Part shown: piece after piece, positions 1 to 7,689 of the stretch
How positions within the stretch are numbered: position 1 is the stretch's first letter
Layout of the letters: each line of letters starts with the position of its first letter
NCBI GenBank assembly: GCA_002281485.1
Contig: NCGF01000011.1
Location: 1 to 64,000, forward strand
Reading direction: 5' to 3'
DNA length: 64,000 nucleotides
Origin: Sphingomonas sp. 28-66-16
Lineage (GTDB): Bacteria; Pseudomonadota; Alphaproteobacteria; Sphingomonadales; Sphingomonadaceae
Notes under the pieces: model-generated
The model's database searches: none
Told to the model about the DNA's origin: nothing
Seen by the model: the letters and a program-made list of their open reading frames with translations, nothing else
Translations under genes and position numbers: made by a program

Positions 1-42
1 GAGAAGCTCGTTCGGAATCGCAGGCTCTTTGCGTCGGGACAT
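1..42 (-). CDS. IS256-family transposase, N-terminal 14 residues (partial)
   Basis: The minus strand from 42 to 1 encodes MSRRKEPAIPNELL, which matches the conserved opening of IS256-family (mutator-type) transposases, usually followed by a DQLLAG segment. An AGGAG ribosome binding site (50-54) sits 7 bases upstream of the ATG. The coding region runs off the left edge, so the DDE catalytic domain cannot be seen. The family call rests on recognising the N-terminus and could be settled by reading the adjacent DNA. Confidence 0.7.
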   Translation of the reverse strand, partial: MSRRKEPAIPNELL

Positions 43-101
43 ATGGGATCTCCTTTTTACCCATTATGCCCGCCCGCACACGGAAATCCTGACAGTCCCT
101 C
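1..101 (-). mobile_element. IS256-family element, left end only
   Basis: The first ~100 bases read on the minus strand as the end of an insertion sequence: a terminal segment beginning near 92-101 (ctgtcaggatttccgtgtgc on the minus strand), then a ribosome binding site and the first codons of an IS256-type transposase. The rest of the element lies left of the window. The outer boundary is placed where the downstream IS66 transposase frame becomes recognisable (about 99-102), so it is accurate only to several bases. The element appears to have inserted into the IS66 tnpC gene. Confidence 0.7.
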
Positions 102-1178
102 CAGGCCCCGGCACCGCCCAAGGCGATTGCCCGCGGTAAGGCCAGCTTCGCGACGCTCGCCTATGTGGTCGTGAACAAGTTCGACCATCATCTGCCGCTC
201 TACCGCCAGGCCGAGATGATGGCGGCACAGGGGATCGATATCGACCGTTCGACCCTGGCCGGTTGGGCGGGGCAAGCCGCAGCCCTGCTCGACCCGATCG
301 TGGCTCGCATCCGCGCGGAAGGACTGAAGGCGACCAAGATCCATGCTGACGACACGCCCGTGCCGATGCTCGACCCCGGCCGGGGCAAGACTGCCACCGC
401 GCGGCTATGGACCTATGTCGTCGATGACCGCGCCTCTGGTTCCGCGAACCCGGCGCTGGTCTGGTACCGGTTTACGCCTGATCGAACCGGCACCCATCCG
501 CAGACCGAGCTCAAGTCCTTCACCGGCCTGCTGCAAGCCGATGGCTATGCCGGATATGACAAGCTCTATGACGGCGGTAGGGTCCGCGAAGTCGCCTGCT
601 GGGCGCATTTTCGGCGCAAGATATTCGAGAACCACGCCACCAGCCCGACGCCGCTGACCATCGGCCTGCTCGAGCGGATCGCACAGCTTTACGTCCGCGA
701 GGCCGAGATTCGTGGGCAACCGCCCGACGTCCGCCGCCGACACCGGCAAGACCATAGTAAGCCGCTGGTCGAGGACCTGCGCATCGCCATCGACGATGCA
801 CTGCGCCGCCTGTCGCCCAAGTCGGCGATGGCCAAGGCGCTCAGCTATGGCCGCAAGCGCTGGATCGCACTGACCCGCTTCCTCGACGATGGTCGCGCCG
901 AGATCGACAACAACATCGCCGAACGCGCGATCCGCTCGATCGCGATCGGCCGCAAGAACTGGCTGTTCGCCGGATCGAAGACAGGCGGCGAACGTGCCGC
1001 CGCGATCTATTCGGTCATCGAGACGTGCAAGCTCAACGGCATCGAGCCACAGGCCTATATCGCCGACGTCATCGCCAAGATCGCCAGCGACTGGCCCGCC
1101 TCGCCCGCCTCGCGCTGGGACGAACTCATGCCGTGGAACTGGACAGCCGACCGCGCGCCTATCAGCATGGCGGCATGA
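102..1178 (+). pseudogene. tnpC: IS66-family transposase TnpC, 5'-truncated
   Basis: This would be the DDE transposase of the IS66 element. The frame is recognisable from about 102 (QAPAPPKAIARGK, then NKFDHHLPLYRQAEMM) and runs to TGA at 1176-1178. Roughly 360 residues remain of a protein normally about 510-530 long, so the N-terminal zinc-finger and leucine-zipper part is missing. The catalytic segments survive: HADDTPVPML, LQADGYAGYD, and the C-terminal DNNIAERAIR with the catalytic Glu. A stop codon in this frame at 90-92, plus the IS256 end immediately upstream, show that the gene is cut by the IS256 insertion. Its stop overlaps the ATG of the passenger gene at 1175. Confidence 0.85.
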
Positions 1179-1680
1179 CTGACCAGATCGCGCGGATTCG
1201 CATCACACTCAACGACATCGATCCTGCCATCTGGCGACGGATCGAGCTGCCCCTCACCAACAGCCTCAAGACGCTGCACCTCGCGATCCAGGCCGTCATG
1301 CTGTTTGAGAACTACCACCTGTTCCGCTTCGATGTCGGCGAGGCCAGCTACGGCATCCGCTTCGACGACGATTACATGGACCCGCCAACCCGCGACGCCG
1401 GCAATCTGCGCCTCGCAAAGCTCGTCGAACGCGGCATCACGGACTTCACCTACACCTATGATTTTGGCGATGACTGGCGGCACAGCATCGTGATCGAAGC
1501 AGTCCTGCCCGCCGATCCATGGCCAAGCCGCGCCATCCCGAACACAAATCCGTGCTCCAATGGTACGGGCGTCCCTTCGATCCCAACGACATCAGCCCGG
1601 ATGATATCAGCGCGCGAATGGCAACCCTCGCCAAGCGCCGCGCCTCCGGCAAAGCCGCCCACGCCAGTAAAAAGAACTGA
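1175..1680 (+). pseudogene. pRiA4b ORF-3-like IS passenger protein, internal deletion and frameshift
   Basis: The gene begins at 1175 (MTDQIARIRITLND), overlapping the tnpC stop as ATGA. It belongs to the plasmid pRiA4b ORF-3 / IS1096 TnpR-like family, often carried downstream of tnpC in IS66 elements. The family core is clear (AIWRRIELP, then FTYTYDFGDDWRH) up to about 1515. The expected segment leading to the family's EDVGG-like region is absent. The family's C-terminus instead resumes in another frame at 1519 (MAKPRHPEHKSVLQWYGRPF) and ends at TGA 1678-1680. A deletion of the order of 100 bp with a frame change explains this. The translated product would carry an unrelated tail, so the gene is probably inactive. 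Confidence 0.75.
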
Positions 1681-1727
1681 TGATCAAGGCGCCCCTCAGG
1701 CCACGCTTACGAAATTTAAGACCCTGA

Positions 1728-1834: not shown

Positions 1835-4348
1835 TCATCCTGTCCTGCTTTCAGGAAGATTCTGCCCTTGGCGGGCTGCCTCCTGCAACCCGAGAATGAC
1901 AGCAATATCGAGCTCCAGCGACAAATCTCCCGTGGCAATATTCAAAAGCGTTTCCCAATCGCCCGTGTCGGCGGATTCGTAAGCATCGACGATGGCGGGC
2001 TGGTTGGGCCATTCGATCGATTCAGGGGCTGGCAATCGCGCAGCGATCTTCTCGAACAACTCCGCCAAATCCGGCCAAAGTCCCGCGAGGCGCCGAGCCG
2101 TAAGGCGCGCTGCATGGATGTTTGAATTGAATTGCCGCCTTGCCGCCAGGATGATCTGCCTGCTGATCGAGTCTTCAGCGCGCTTCTTGACTTTGGCCTG
2201 GGACGCCAATTTTGCGCAACCTTTCAGATCGATGGCGGCTTTGCGCAGCGCTCGCCCGGCGTCGGCGACTGCAACCTCGAGCGGCTTTAGTTTCGCCAGT
2301 TCACCAAAGGCAAACCACTCGCAGTAGGCAATTGAAAGTGCGGCACGCTCAGACAGTGCCCGCAATTCGCGTGCATATTCGACCGCAGCCCGGTGATGGG
2401 CGATACACTGTGTCAGCGTCGTCTCGGCAGCGATCATCCAGTCCCGCCACACGTCATCGTAGCTCAGATCGATCTCTGGGCGCGTACCGGCGATCCGGAA
2501 ACGGAGGGACTTTGCTCGCAGGTACAGGAATTCATAATATTCGTGTTCCAGCCGCTCCTTGTCGTCGTGATCGCCAGCCAAGCCCTCCTCGGCTGCCCGC
2601 GCAGCAAGATCGGCATAGCGATCCGCATCATTCCAACTCTCGAGGTTGAAAGCGAGAAGTGCAACAAGCGCGAATATGCGCTCCGGATGCTGGACAAGCG
2701 CATCCATCCTTTTGTGAAGATCGGAGGCGCTCATCGCCTTCAGCCACGCTACCATGCTGCTGTAATCCAGCGGGTCATTGCGGTTATCCGAAAATGAGAG
2801 ACGCACCTCGACCGCGGCGCGTTGCGAGGCCGCCCCCTCATCCGGCGTTCGCGCGAGAAATTCCTCCAGCGCATCCGCCATGAGCTGTAGCGAGAATTGA
2901 ACGCCCGCGCTCCGAGCAGACTCGAAACGTTTGTCAATCGCATTGGCCAGCGCTTGTGTACCAGCACCAACTGCCTCCGCGAGGAAGCGCTCTCGTTCCT
3001 TGTTAAGACGTTCGGCGACTAGACGAGGAAAGGCCTCCAACATCAGGCTCTCGATTTCGCTCAATTCGGCGACCAGCGCATCCAGGGAGGCCTCATTCTC
3101 TGCGACCCATTCGGGGTCACGCGCCTTCGGGAAAAAGTCGGCAAGGATCGCGACGATCGACTCAGGCGCGCGCTCGACCCGCAGCGCGAAGTCGTCGCGC
3201 GCTCGCCGACGCCATTCATTTTCTCCTGCCAGAAGACCGAGATTCAGAGGAACCATCGCGCCTTCGAGAACCTCCTGCAGACGCTTGAATGCCGCCTCAC
3301 GCGCCATTTGACTGTTTGCGCTCGTCGGATTGAAAACTGGGGCGAAATAGCTGATGGGCCGTACGAAGAGGAACCGCTGCTGGATGTCCTCTACGAACCG
3401 CTGCCGCGCTGCATCGAGCAAGGTCCGGTCCCCGGTCACGAAAACGATCCGGCGGTTCCAGCCCTCGGTCTGGCGATTGCCCCACGTGACCAGAGCGAGC
3501 GCATCGCAGTCCGCAGTGAGCGCAGCGTCCGTCTTGGGCTTGGATTGCCGCCCCTGCACGATCAGAGAAATGTAACGGCGCCAAATTTCGCTTTCCTCCC
3601 GGATCTCCTCCCAGTCCAATTCGGTCGGCTTAAGTAACCGCTCCAGGTCCATGTATTTGCCGGCGATCCGCGCGGATCGATAACGCACGACCTGATCGGA
3701 TGGCTCAAGGATCCAGTCCTGCGCCAAAAGCCGACAGGCTTCGCGCGATCGAATACCGATTGCACGGTCGGTAAACTCCTGTTGGGGCGCGTGCGCAAAC
3801 CCCGCAAGTGCCTCGGGAACCCAGCCTTGGCGTTCTGCAAGCTTTAGAAACGGCTCGCGTTCGGCATGCGGATCAAGGGAAAGCGCAGCGTTCAATTCCT
3901 TCAGACGCTTGAGCGCGAATTTGCCGAAATCCTCGTCCTTGCGAAGCCGCTGTGCGATATCCTTACCCCAGGCCACCATGTAACCGATCTGGTGCTCGGT
4001 TTCCTCATGATGAGCACGCGTCATGTACCATCTGCCTTGGCGCTGGCCGGGCAAAGCGCCGGAGAAGAGATATTCGGCCGCCAGCAGGCAGGCCTGGGTG
4101 TTAACATCGGTATCAGCCTGAGAATCCCCTTCCCAAAGCGGAGCGTGAAATACCTGAGCAAATCGCGGATTCTTATATGGCTCAAGAAACATCTGGATGA
4201 CGTTTGTGTCGAACACATAGGCGATCTCGCCATTTTGATCGGCATGGCCACCATCGTCGGAATTGCGGTCAATCGTTCGGGTGATGTCAATCACCGCGCC
4301 AAGTTTGCGCGTTAGTCGCTTAAGCGGCCGTTCGGACGCATCCCTCAT
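1835..4348 (-). CDS. Large PIN-domain protein, third gene of an unrecognised operon
   Basis: An 837-residue protein whose first ~340 residues look like a PIN-type nuclease. AYVFDTNVIQMFLEP places a first acidic residue at D47. RAHHEETEHQ gives E115/E116/E118. ALTADCDALALVTW gives D280/D282, and IVFVTGDRTLLDAA gives D307, the usual end of the PIN active site. PIN proteins are metal-dependent RNases, here likely the effector; that is inference. The remaining ~490 residues are mainly helical, with repeat-like segments near 600-700, and match no family I recognise. The start ATG overlaps the stop of the preceding gene as ATGA. PIN proteins of toxin-antitoxin pairs are about 130-150 residues, so this is not an ordinary VapC. 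Confidence 0.72.
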   Translation of the reverse strand: MRDASERPLKRLTRKLGAVIDITRTIDRNSDDGGHADQNGEIAYVFDTNVIQMFLEPYKNPRFAQVFHAPLWEGDSQADTDVNTQACLLAAEYLFSGALPGQRQGRWYMTRAHHEETEHQIGYMVAWGKDIAQRLRKDEDFGKFALKRLKELNAALSLDPHAEREPFLKLAERQGWVPEALAGFAHAPQQEFTDRAIGIRSREACRLLAQDWILEPSDQVVRYRSARIAGKYMDLERLLKPTELDWEEIREESEIWRRYISLIVQGRQSKPKTDAALTADCDALALVTWGNRQTEGWNRRIVFVTGDRTLLDAARQRFVEDIQQRFLFVRPISYFAPVFNPTSANSQMAREAAFKRLQEVLEGAMVPLNLGLLAGENEWRRRARDDFALRVERAPESIVAILADFFPKARDPEWVAENEASLDALVAELSEIESLMLEAFPRLVAERLNKERERFLAEAVGAGTQALANAIDKRFESARSAGVQFSLQLMADALEEFLARTPDEGAASQRAAVEVRLSFSDNRNDPLDYSSMVAWLKAMSASDLHKRMDALVQHPERIFALVALLAFNLESWNDADRYADLAARAAEEGLAGDHDDKERLEHEYYEFLYLRAKSLRFRIAGTRPEIDLSYDDVWRDWMIAAETTLTQCIAHHRAAVEYARELRALSERAALSIAYCEWFAFGELAKLKPLEVAVADAGRALRKAAIDLKGCAKLASQAKVKKRAEDSISRQIILAARRQFNSNIHAARLTARRLAGLWPDLAELFEKIAARLPAPESIEWPNQPAIVDAYESADTGDWETLLNIATGDLSLELDIAVILGLQEAARQGQNLPESRTG

Positions 4349-5241
4349 CCCCGCCGCCTGCGGTACTTGTCCATGTCCACGACCTTACTGAGCTCGTCGA
4401 GGACGTCGGTGCGCTTCTCGAGCTCACTCTCGGATTCCTGCGTTTCAGCGGCGCCTTGTTCGTCGATGGGCGCTTCATCCTCGGCAAAGCCGACAGCCCA
4501 GGGCACGGTGAGCTGCGCGAGTGCCGCACGCAGCGCCGCGCGAACGTTATCCTCCTGCCGCACTGTCGCGAGGCATCGGACTAGCTCATTGCTCGGAAAC
4601 TCATCGATCAACGCGAGCGCTATCGCCTTGGCATATAAGCCGTCATGAGGCTCAACTGTCAGCCCCGGCAAAATTCGCACGACCGTCCCAGGTAAATTTT
4701 CCAACCCACCAAAATCCTCGCGCGCAAAAATGAGCGCAAGTTCCGCCGCAAGGTTCGGCTCCAGCAAATCCAACTGCCACAGGGTGCGGCTTAGATCTTC
4801 GACTTCCGACTTACGAAATCGTGCGTCGGCCGCGCGTACCGAAAGATAGGCCAAATCCTGTTTCGAGCGCTGGGGAAGGTCGACCGAACGCGCAAGGAGC
4901 ATCATCGTCGCGCGATAGAGTCCCCGGCCGTGCAATCGGGTCGCAAGTTGCAGGGCGATGGCGGCGCCCCGCCAACCATCAAGATCGGGTGCCCAACTCC
5001 GCACTACCTCGACCGCAGCGTTCGCCGGAGCACCGCTTGGTTCGATCATCAGCACGCGGATCTGGTTGAATATCTCCCCTGCAGGACTCGAAGTTTCGGG
5101 ATCTACGAATAGGGGAGCGAACGCGCTGACTTTGCGGGCGACAGGGACCTGTGCGGTAAATGCGAGGAGGGCGCTGCGCAGCCACGACACCCATATGTCA
5201 GTTGACGCAGCGATCAGCTCCTCGCGGCTAACTTGAGTCAT
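4345..5241 (-). CDS. Unrecognised helical protein, second gene of the PIN operon
   Basis: A 298-residue protein with no family I can name. It is predicted soluble and mostly helical, with no signal peptide or membrane segment. It starts MTQVSREELIAASTDIWVSW and ends with an acidic stretch rich in Glu/Gln and a basic tail (DMDKYRRRRG). Its ATG overlaps the upstream gene's stop (5238-5241, ATGA), and its stop overlaps the PIN gene's start (4345-4348, ATGA), so the three genes are almost certainly translated together. A scaffold, sensor or regulator for the PIN protein is possible, but nothing in the sequence proves it. Confidence 0.65.
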   Translation of the reverse strand: MTQVSREELIAASTDIWVSWLRSALLAFTAQVPVARKVSAFAPLFVDPETSSPAGEIFNQIRVLMIEPSGAPANAAVEVVRSWAPDLDGWRGAAIALQLATRLHGRGLYRATMMLLARSVDLPQRSKQDLAYLSVRAADARFRKSEVEDLSRTLWQLDLLEPNLAAELALIFAREDFGGLENLPGTVVRILPGLTVEPHDGLYAKAIALALIDEFPSNELVRCLATVRQEDNVRAALRAALAQLTVPWAVGFAEDEAPIDEQGAAETQESESELEKRTDVLDELSKVVDMDKYRRRRG

Positions 5242-6197
5242 AGGCCGGTTGCCTTGGCAAGGTCGCGCAGCAAACTCACCGAGTCTGGAGCCCCAAGCGT
5301 CCTGAGATAATCCCCTTCGGCGTCGTCAAAGTCCGGATTGCTTAGGCGTCCGAGATATATGCAATGCTCGAAAGCCTCGATAGGAAGCACCGGTCTCACG
5401 CTCTCGGCAGCGCCGTGAGTATCGCGCGGGCTCGCTTTCGACCTTAGTTCGCCATCGAGCTCGTAGGTTCGCCCGTAGCGATCATCGATCGACCGCCTCG
5501 GCCAGTGCCTGAAACGCCGGTGGCCCCGCGCTTCGATCGCCGTTGGACCTGCCGGCCCCATTTGATCACCTGTCTTGGGATGCTCAAATCCGAGTTCCCC
5601 AATTGTTCGGCTGGTAACCATCGCGATAACTTCATCCCTGGCGTGGATATGAACCAAGCCAAGCAGACTAACCGCTCTTCTGGCGATCTCGACGCGGCGT
5701 GCGCGGGCGCACTTCCGTTCTCGCGCCTCTTCGCAAAGCGCCCTCATCTCGCCGGTGTAGGGTGTGAACCACATCGGCTTTCCAGGCAGCCCGACGGTAC
5801 CTCGACAACGACCGTCCGCGAACGCATCTACGATCCGGGGTGCGCGGACGCGTTTCCCTGTCCAAGCATCACCGAGTGCCCCATCCTCGCTTGCCTGAAT
5901 GGTCACGGCGCGAGAATCAAGGAACGCGGAAAGCGGTCCTGTTCGGAGATAGTGATCTTCCTCGCCGAAGAATTTTAGCGATTCCATATGTGCCAATCGC
6001 AATGCGGCACGATCCTTGTGTGCGCTTGCAGAGAAGCTGTCGATCATTCGCCGCAACCGGCGCTTTGCCGAGCCCAAGGCGATCTGGTGTTTGTCCACGC
6101 CAGCTAGAAGATTAGCGAAGCAAGCCCTAAGTTCAGCCTCGACCTCTTCCTGGGAAGGACCATTCGCCAGTGCCGTAGCAATCGCGTCAAGTGTCAT
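5238..6197 (-). CDS. Unrecognised protein, first gene of the PIN operon
   Basis: A 319-residue soluble protein that opens the operon. The start at 6197 is preceded by a purine-rich GGGGGAAG ribosome binding site. The N-terminal ~100 residues are helical and charged (EEVEAELRACFANLLAG). The middle contains an aromatic/Gly segment (GLPGKPMWFTPYTGEM) and a Cys/Arg-rich helix (EEARERKCARARRVEIARR). No catalytic motif that I recognise is visible. About 160 bases without a gene separate it from the toxin-antitoxin pair upstream, and they should hold the operon promoter, although I see no convincing -35/-10 boxes. Confidence 0.65.
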   Translation of the reverse strand: MTLDAIATALANGPSQEEVEAELRACFANLLAGVDKHQIALGSAKRRLRRMIDSFSASAHKDRAALRLAHMESLKFFGEEDHYLRTGPLSAFLDSRAVTIQASEDGALGDAWTGKRVRAPRIVDAFADGRCRGTVGLPGKPMWFTPYTGEMRALCEEARERKCARARRVEIARRAVSLLGLVHIHARDEVIAMVTSRTIGELGFEHPKTGDQMGPAGPTAIEARGHRRFRHWPRRSIDDRYGRTYELDGELRSKASPRDTHGAAESVRPVLPIEAFEHCIYLGRLSNPDFDDAEGDYLRTLGAPDSVSLLRDLAKATGL

Positions 6198-6359: not shown

Positions 6360-6872
6360 CTACCCCTCGTCTTTTAGTGACTTTTCAATCACTTCAATGG
6401 GAATGATCAGCGAATAGGGGCTGCTTGGAGAAGGCTGAAAGCCGAAGTGGCCATAAAATTGTACAGCCTCGTCGTCGATGGCATGAACGAGCAATCCGCG
6501 AACGCCGACAAGTTCGGACACCTCGATCGTCCTTATCATCGCTTCTCTTAGCAGAAAGCTACCAAGACCCTGACCACTGTGATCGCTGTCTACTGCCAGA
6601 CGTCCAAGCAAGATGACCGGTACGAAGTCCGGTTGATTGCGTCGCATCTTTCGAGGCAGTTCGGTCAGGCCTAACCTACCAGATGCGAGCGCGTAATATG
6701 CGACTACAGTGTTGCCGCCATGAGTAACGACATAGGTGCGGGAAGCACTTCCCTCGTTCCCGAGTGCATGTTCACGCAGCCAGGCATCGAGCCTCACGTT
6801 GCCGCTCGAGAAGCTCGACACGACGTGATGCGACTCAATCCGGGCCGGGGGAGCGTAGAGCGGCTCTGGCAT
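6360..6872 (-). CDS. tacT: GNAT acetyltransferase toxin, TacT type
   Basis: A 170-residue GNAT-fold protein of the TacT/AtaT group, which blocks translation by acetylating the amino group of aminoacyl-tRNA. Family marks are the N-terminal SSFSSGNVRLDAWLREHAL, then ASRTYVV, and the acetyl-CoA loop GRLAVDSDHSGQGLGSFLLR. The start at MPEPLYAPP (6872) fits the family length and leaves 11 bases after the antitoxin stop; a start at 6893 would overlap the antitoxin by 10 bases. It is paired with a DUF1778 antitoxin, the usual partner. The pair sits on the accessory side of the tRNA-Lys scar, where it may stabilise the island. Confidence 0.86.
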   Translation of the reverse strand: MPEPLYAPPARIESHHVVSSFSSGNVRLDAWLREHALGNEGSASRTYVVTHGGNTVVAYYALASGRLGLTELPRKMRRNQPDFVPVILLGRLAVDSDHSGQGLGSFLLREAMIRTIEVSELVGVRGLLVHAIDDEAVQFYGHFGFQPSPSSPYSLIIPIEVIEKSLKDEG

Positions 6873-6883
6873 GATCGCCTCTG

Positions 6884-7192
6884 CTACTCCCACGGTGCCC
6901 TACCCGCCATGAGCTTGCGCAACGCCGGCACAGGCCTTGGGGGTTCATCAAGTAGCTTCATCAAAGCGACTGTCTGGACCTCGTCCAGTTCGAACATGCG
7001 CTGGTCGAGGACGACCTCCTCCGCGCGCGCAACGGCCGCCTCGAGGATGAACTCCGTACGAGACTTGTCGAGCGCGCGACGAGCGGCATCTATAAGCGCG
7101 CGCGTCTTCTCAGGCACGCGGATGCTCAGCATGTCAGAACTCGAACGTCGCTGTTCGCTTTCCTGTTCTAATTTCTTTGCGGCGGGAGGCAT
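6884..7192 (-). CDS. tacA: DUF1778 ribbon-helix-helix antitoxin, TacA type
   Basis: A 102-residue antitoxin. SSDMLSIRVPEKTRALIDAA is the ribbon-helix-helix DNA-binding segment, and KSRTEFILEAAVARAEEVVL is the dimerising helix typical of DUF1778. The C-terminal part should wrap and block the toxin's active site. It lies first in the two-gene operon, the standard order, with AAGGAC upstream of the ATG as ribosome binding site. Such antitoxins, alone or with the toxin, normally repress their own promoter. Confidence 0.87.
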   Translation of the reverse strand: MPPAAKKLEQESEQRRSSSDMLSIRVPEKTRALIDAARRALDKSRTEFILEAAVARAEEVVLDQRMFELDEVQTVALMKLLDEPPRPVPALRKLMAGRAPWE

Positions 7193-7644: not shown

Positions 7645-7689
7645 CTCTTAATCAGCGGGTCCTTGGTTCGAGCCCAAGTGCGTCCACCA
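7645..7689 (+). other. tRNA-Lys(CUU) 3' half, probable attachment-site scar
   Basis: The 45 bases 7645-7689 form an exact tRNA 3' half. They comprise anticodon loop ctcttaa (anticodon CTT, Lys), descending anticodon strand tcagc, variable loop gggtc, T stem cttgg/ccaag with loop ttcgagc, acceptor strand tgcgtcc, discriminator a and encoded CCA. The matching 5' strands (ggacgca, gctga) are not found upstream. Elements that integrate with tyrosine recombinases in tRNA genes cross over near the anticodon loop or T-arm and leave this kind of fragment at their distal end. Accessory genes lie to the left and core genes to the right, so an intact tRNA-Lys and an integrase are expected left of the window. 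Confidence 0.75.

Follow-up and report, generated by a model that had tools for sequence, protein, structure and literature searches.

A mobile three-gene operon with a PIN-like protein in Sphingomonas, a candidate conflict system with a Lamassu-like layout

What might three tightly packed genes, whose products match no described family, be doing in a stretch of accessory DNA? Such a trio occupies positions 1835 to 6197 of the stretch we analyzed, the first 64,000 nucleotides of contig NCGF01000011.1 of Sphingomonas sp. 28-66-16 (assembly GCA_002281485.1), which we refer to in full as the window. An earlier sequence-only reading had seen in these genes a candidate undescribed defence system, in which an RNase effector is sensed for or restrained by its two partners. 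We find that the gene order is kept in every locus with an intact third gene and that, in three relatives, the first gene is replaced by one with the effector domain of LmuA from Lamassu while the third gene stays constant. We consider it reasonably probable that the trio is a mobile three-component conflict system with a Lamassu-like layout, with a PIN-like core in place of the SMC ATPase. That it is a defence-type three-component system, whatever its layout, appears likely, and a conflict system of this kind would very probably be directed at phage or plasmid.

An operon with a constant third gene and an exchangeable first gene

The trio is led by gene 1 (g1; 5238..6197, minus strand), which encodes 319 amino acids (aa), followed by a middle component, gene 2 (g2; 4345..5241, minus strand; 298 aa), and by gene 3 (g3; 1835..4348, minus strand; 837 aa), which has a PIN-like N-terminal region and a long C-terminal region. 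Both junctions, g1/g2 and g2/g3, are 4-base overlaps, which agrees with the three leftward open reading frames (ORFs) joined by ATGA that the sequence-only reading had reported. The coding status of all three ORFs is backed by conserved relatives. The g1 family displays the motifs R..LGL, PT, WG.T.DL and DG.PE, while in the g2 family, whose helical character was judged by inspection, W20 and F41 are invariant.

Scans against Pfam, NCBIfam and PADLOC gave no convincing match for any of the three window proteins. The best library matches of g3 (TMEM132 domain, E 0.018) and g1 (dehydrogenase, E 0.14) are far below cut-off; for g1, sub-threshold matches in Pfam and NCBIfam are at chance level at most and there are none in PADLOC, and the 13 g2 relatives scanned against Pfam gave chance-level matches at most. 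In profile searches against solved structures, we found no match for g1 and chance-level matches for g2, while for g3 there was nothing better than weak matches to coiled coils and TPR proteins, besides chance ones. A predicted structure of g1 was dropped because of its mean predicted local distance difference test score of 34. The three window families are without description in the libraries scanned, and no housekeeping family turned up there. No paper on such a trio was found in the open-licence literature, a coverage outside which subscription papers mostly lie.

In total, we collected 16 intact g3 genes, window included. Every one of them (16/16) occupies the last position of a co-directional trio, in which the spacing between neighbours ranges from -61 to +45 bases. 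These gaps depend on the chosen gene starts and, because the starts are mostly the first possible codon, the overlaps of -61, -58 and -35 may be overstated. Window-type g1 and g2 occur together in 12 of the 16 loci (window, L004, L020, L023-L026 and L038-L042), with identities to the window of 17-23% for g1 and 11-19% for g2, which makes these families diverse (the L025 row of the g1 alignment begins one codon before its ATG). Among 48 genomes of a well-sampled class, nine have a strong window-type g1 (E < 1e-70), eight of which also have an intact adjoining g3. The hypergeometric probability of such co-occurrence, calculated by hand from 8 g3, 9 g1 and 8 shared genomes of 48, is ~2e-8, which is only indicative since the genomes are related. 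Likewise, distance correlations of 0.66-0.75 may mostly reflect shared ancestry.

In the remaining four loci, gene 1 is of a different kind. An LmuA-type gene 1 is present in L021 (genome G723, from the window's own genus; 533 aa), L003 (Asticcacaulis plasmid; 604 aa) and L045 (Ruegeria plasmid; 575 aa), matching the PADLOC LmuA profile PDLC03858 with E values of 5e-46, 3e-46 and 6e-39, respectively, in each case over only about the first 250-300 of its 827 positions. The two of these proteins scanned against Pfam, from L021 and L003, are FAD/NAD(P)-binding. The middle proteins of the three loci do not match the window-type g2 profile. A homologue from Rhizobium sp. ZX09 (L046) is part of a full Lamassu set, with PADLOC matches to LmuA (2e-268), LmuC (1e-74) and LmuB (E 0). 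In L022, gene 1 is of a third kind without family match in the libraries scanned, and its gene 2 (419 aa) was aligned to the g2 family by eye. With g3 constant and gene 1 changing, the trio has the PIN-like protein as its fixed core and an exchangeable slot in first position.

This organization parallels that of Lamassu/ABC-3C systems (LmuA-LmuC-LmuB), with an exchangeable effector first, a middle component second and a large protein third. The composition of these systems is described in PMC10586767, according to which LmuA changes while the SMC-like ATPase LmuB, the presumed sensor, is constant. The LmuA-LmuC-LmuB order itself we saw in loci of this analysis. The likeness extends to the LmuA-type effector domain carried by L021, L003 and L045. 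In contrast, PADLOC LmuB has no match among the g3 proteins of the window, L045, L022, L003 and L021 (5 of the 16 were scanned), PADLOC LmuC has none among the middle proteins of the window, L045 and L021 (three loci scanned), and the window g1 is itself not LmuA, with 0/12 window-type g1 proteins matching any PADLOC profile, LmuA included. We would rate the trio as not categorically new, because it has its layout and, in relatives, a module in common with Lamassu.

Several observations were made around these relatives. The middle protein of L021 (L021:7274-8089), which has no Pfam or PADLOC match, resembles on visual inspection a degenerate trypsin-like protein, an impression based on the motif PGDAGG, which we take to be of trypsin type. 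Such a likeness would recall the nuclease-protease pairs that are described in PMC12799240 as acquired by antiviral systems, including unrelated immune systems. Beside the trio of genome G660, the segment L020:11186-15118 may hold another conflict unit. It encodes a protein of metallo-beta-lactamase fold that partially matches LmuA (E 9e-13), next to an ORF of 820 aa that has no family and in which a HEXXH-like motif was seen by eye. In both plasmid loci, g3 is followed by a small gene (L003:10650-11150, 166 aa; L045:11150-11644, 164 aa). Finally, L065:131-1003 and L066:6276-10289, with a g1-like domain and no PIN-like partner, may represent a second type of system that uses g1.

How widespread is the trio? 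Counting its own genome each time, g3 is present in 2/100 near relatives, 4/397 genomes of the family and 6/398 genomes of the phylum, two of these six being already known; a three-row profile run on 385 genomes of the class recovered it in the own genome and in no other (1/385). With a ten-row profile, matches were found in 10/48 genomes of one other class of the phylum, of which eight have an intact g3 (nine loci), one has a remnant and one was judged a chance match. A scan of one genome per species, done with two short patterns by which distant relatives are missed, gave nothing new beyond the contig of G004, a relative of the same genus that carries the trio. A search of 72,556 plasmid records led directly to one g3 (L003, on Asticcacaulis pASEM-1) and, via its gene 1, to a second (L045, Ruegeria sp. 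YS9; g3 profile E 5e-37), while other g3 queries of these records gave no further g3. Set aside as chance or incomplete were a g2 match in G033 (E 0.007; no trio among its ORFs), a g3 match in G950 (E 6.5e-4; no trio seen), G874, which has only a C-terminal g3 remnant, and L064, L065 and L066, in which g1 or g1 with g2 occurs without g3. We consider it very improbable that the trio is simply a metabolic or housekeeping operon acquired by chance. Nothing found here favours that reading, and the sporadic presence among near relatives and in the family, the mobile context and the changing gene 1 speak against it.

The PIN-like region and C-terminal arm of g3

PIN domains have an acidic set that follows the pattern D, E, D, (D). 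In g3, the acidic positions D47, E116, D280 and D307, located in the PIN-like region (residues 36-345; 3314..4243, minus strand), follow the same order. While D47, E116 and D280 are invariant in 16/16 g3 members, D307 is kept in 10/16 (9/15 tabulated rows plus L045 from its alignment) and is S or A in L026 and L038-L042. The acidic set that had been picked out from the window alone thus stands for these first three positions and in part for D307, whereas E118 and D282, which had been included in it, are not invariant.

We compared this region with VapC-type PIN domains using hhalign and a PF01850 alignment of 19 sequences from related genomes (25 loci, of which 22 were extracted and 3 wrongly framed rows dropped). 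In global mode, uncut g3 gave a probability of 11.1%, with D47 and E116 in register and the last motif out of register, the reversed control being in local mode only. When the helical insert was left out, the RIVFVTGD strand was also placed onto LVTAN, and the probability was 15.1% vs. 0.6% for the control. We also looked in 115 genomes for PF18476 (PIN_8), which might have served as a bridge, and obtained a single short match of no use. By these profile comparisons, g3 weakly resembles VapC-type PIN domains, and its PIN fold is putative. The likeness to VapBC, a small PIN toxin with an adjacent VapB antitoxin, lies in this weak resemblance, in which the D and E motifs align. Unlike VapC, g3 is 837 aa long, contains a large insert, extends into a long C-terminal arm and does not match PF01850, and its two partner genes, of 298 and 319 aa, are unrelated ones with no match to VapB or any other family.

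The C-terminal half of g3 is conserved as well. Between approximately residues 545 and 760 (2069..2716, minus strand), W572, R616, R663, E667 and N743 are invariant in 15 members, and there is a weak TPR-like match to HOP/STIP1 (best E 0.036-0.14).

Roles of the three components

The sequence-only reading had assigned to g1 and g2 the role of sensing for, or restraining, an RNase effector, and this assignment was not supported. Since gene 1 is an exchangeable slot that contains a Lamassu effector domain in three relatives, g1 is no less likely an output than a sensor, and, on the same evidence, the PIN-like protein may be a core or trigger rather than a restrained toxin. Its broader proposal fared better, as the three undescribed genes are inherited together in a mobile context, have a PIN-like acidic set and, in relatives, have a component in common with a defence system. 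Two of the results that would have spoken against that proposal were not obtained, as the genes do co-occur elsewhere and the libraries scanned gave no housekeeping family. We give slightly less than even chances to the tentative assignment of the output role to g1 and of the core or trigger role to the PIN-like protein.

In the mechanism that we propose by analogy to Lamassu, via the common effector domain, g3 would be the core of a complex, with a PIN-like nuclease and an arm that is long, helical and in part TPR-like. In the middle, g2 would act as an adaptor, and g1 would be an output component docked onto the g2-g3 pair. Together with g2, g3 would keep g1 inactive until an infection signal, most simply RNA or another nucleic acid, is engaged by the PIN-like site of g3, which would free or activate g1 and lead to harm or arrest of the infected cell. 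A more specific version, which we regard as doubtful, is that the trio is a PIN-based three-component counterpart of Lamassu, where an RNA-engaging PIN-like sensor replaces the SMC ATPase and drives exchangeable outputs, some of them common with Lamassu.

Could g3 instead be the toxin? The PIN-like protein would then be a killing RNase that cleaves tRNA or mRNA and so aborts infection, while g1 and g2 sense the invader and restrain g3. This agrees with the three acidic residues that are invariant in g3 and with the fact that sensors are often exchanged between systems, but the LmuA-type gene 1 of three relatives would mean two effectors there, and the fourth acidic residue is lost in 6/16 members. 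Two validated defence systems found by DefensePredictor, DS-3 and DS-5, cannot do without their PIN ribonuclease domain (PMC13092281), and they resemble the trio in that a PIN-type nuclease is required in a small defence unit. They differ from it in composition, DS-3 being one protein with a split PIN and DS-5 a PIN protein with a DUF5830 protein. On balance, we consider a toxic g3, the main rival reading, less likely than not. In a two-layer system, both g1 and g3 would be active, with g3 cleaving the nucleic acid of the invader and g1 serving as an additional effector that can be exchanged. Invariant PIN-type residues and an effector-type gene 1 are indeed found together in the three LmuA-containing relatives, but the conserved residues of window-type g1 match no known active site and there is no independent sign that it is an enzyme, so that we find this arrangement unlikely.

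Returning to a conflict system with a PIN-like core and g1 as output, a number of results weigh against it. First, there were 0 matches in PADLOC for the window's three proteins. Second, 0/15 g3 members match a Pfam PIN family, PF01850 included, and in local mode the uncut g3 region gave a weak probability of 8.3% against the PF01850 alignment, best at the E116 motif, compared with 0.1% each for the reversed region, two C-terminal g3 pieces, g1 and g2. Third, the loss of D307 in 6/16 members means that catalysis may be lost in some of them. Fourth, window g3 has 0 matches in 50,697 phage records, and none was confirmed in viral contigs scanned with g3 alone and with the A1 alignment. Last, g1 is found without a detected g3 in L064, where it is accompanied by a longer g2, and in L065 and L066, where a g1-like domain lies beside a large helical or TPR-like protein. 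If the reading is true, the presence of the same effector domain on a PIN-like core would mean that, in bacterial immunity, effector modules are recombined with core modules even where the cores are unrelated, three unannotated protein families would gain a testable function, and a natural comparison with Lamassu would be available, with the same output and a different trigger.

The mobile-element context

The trio is in a mobile-element context, in agreement with the accessory-DNA setting, the IS66 remnant, the TacAT pair and the tRNA-Lys scar noted earlier, the last three of which we recovered. The genome consists of 51 contigs, and the window begins at the first base of its contig, which cuts an IS66-type element (1..1710, plus strand) whose inverted repeat (1699-1710) ends 124 bases from the g3 stop. 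In L004, the same kind of element (L004:6858-9949) is found 147 bases beyond the g3 stop. Both Sphingomonas operons thus adjoin an IS66 end although they are only about one-quarter identical. We considered IS66 as a carrier of the operon and rejected it. The L004 element is complete, bounded by repeats at its two ends and flanked on either side by the 8-base duplication GGGGAAGC, which places the operon outside the element.

Upstream of the trio, on the same strand, is a TacAT-like pair (6360..7192, minus strand) of a GNAT toxin and a TacA1 antitoxin. An addiction module or stress system that maintains a conjugative element with no role in defence would fit the position of the trio at the end of an integrated element, adjoining this pair. 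Such a module is quite unlikely, since partners in type II toxin-antitoxin pairs are usually much smaller than these proteins, and the relatives have a domain in common with Lamassu and, in one case, are near a restriction-type helicase gene.

The element would be closed by an attachment-site scar, a 45-base copy of the 3' end of tRNA-Lys(CTT) (7645..7689, plus strand) that is identical over its whole length to the intact tRNA-Lys(CTT) on another contig (C42) of the same genome. Directly beyond the intact gene are a 364 aa tyrosine-integrase-like protein and then Trb/TraG-like conjugation genes, names that were given by eye and not by profile. This run (L069:1049-14386; G000:C42) is probably the other end of the trio's element. 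Most simply, these parts would belong to a single integrative and conjugative element split between contigs, with the trio and the TacAT pair at its far end, the join being putative. Relatives of the trio are similarly found on plasmids (L003 and L045) or have as neighbours an integrase (L022), an ADP-ribosylglycohydrolase (L041) or, close by, a Fic gene (L040), and a gene upstream of the L045 trio encodes a helicase like those of restriction systems.

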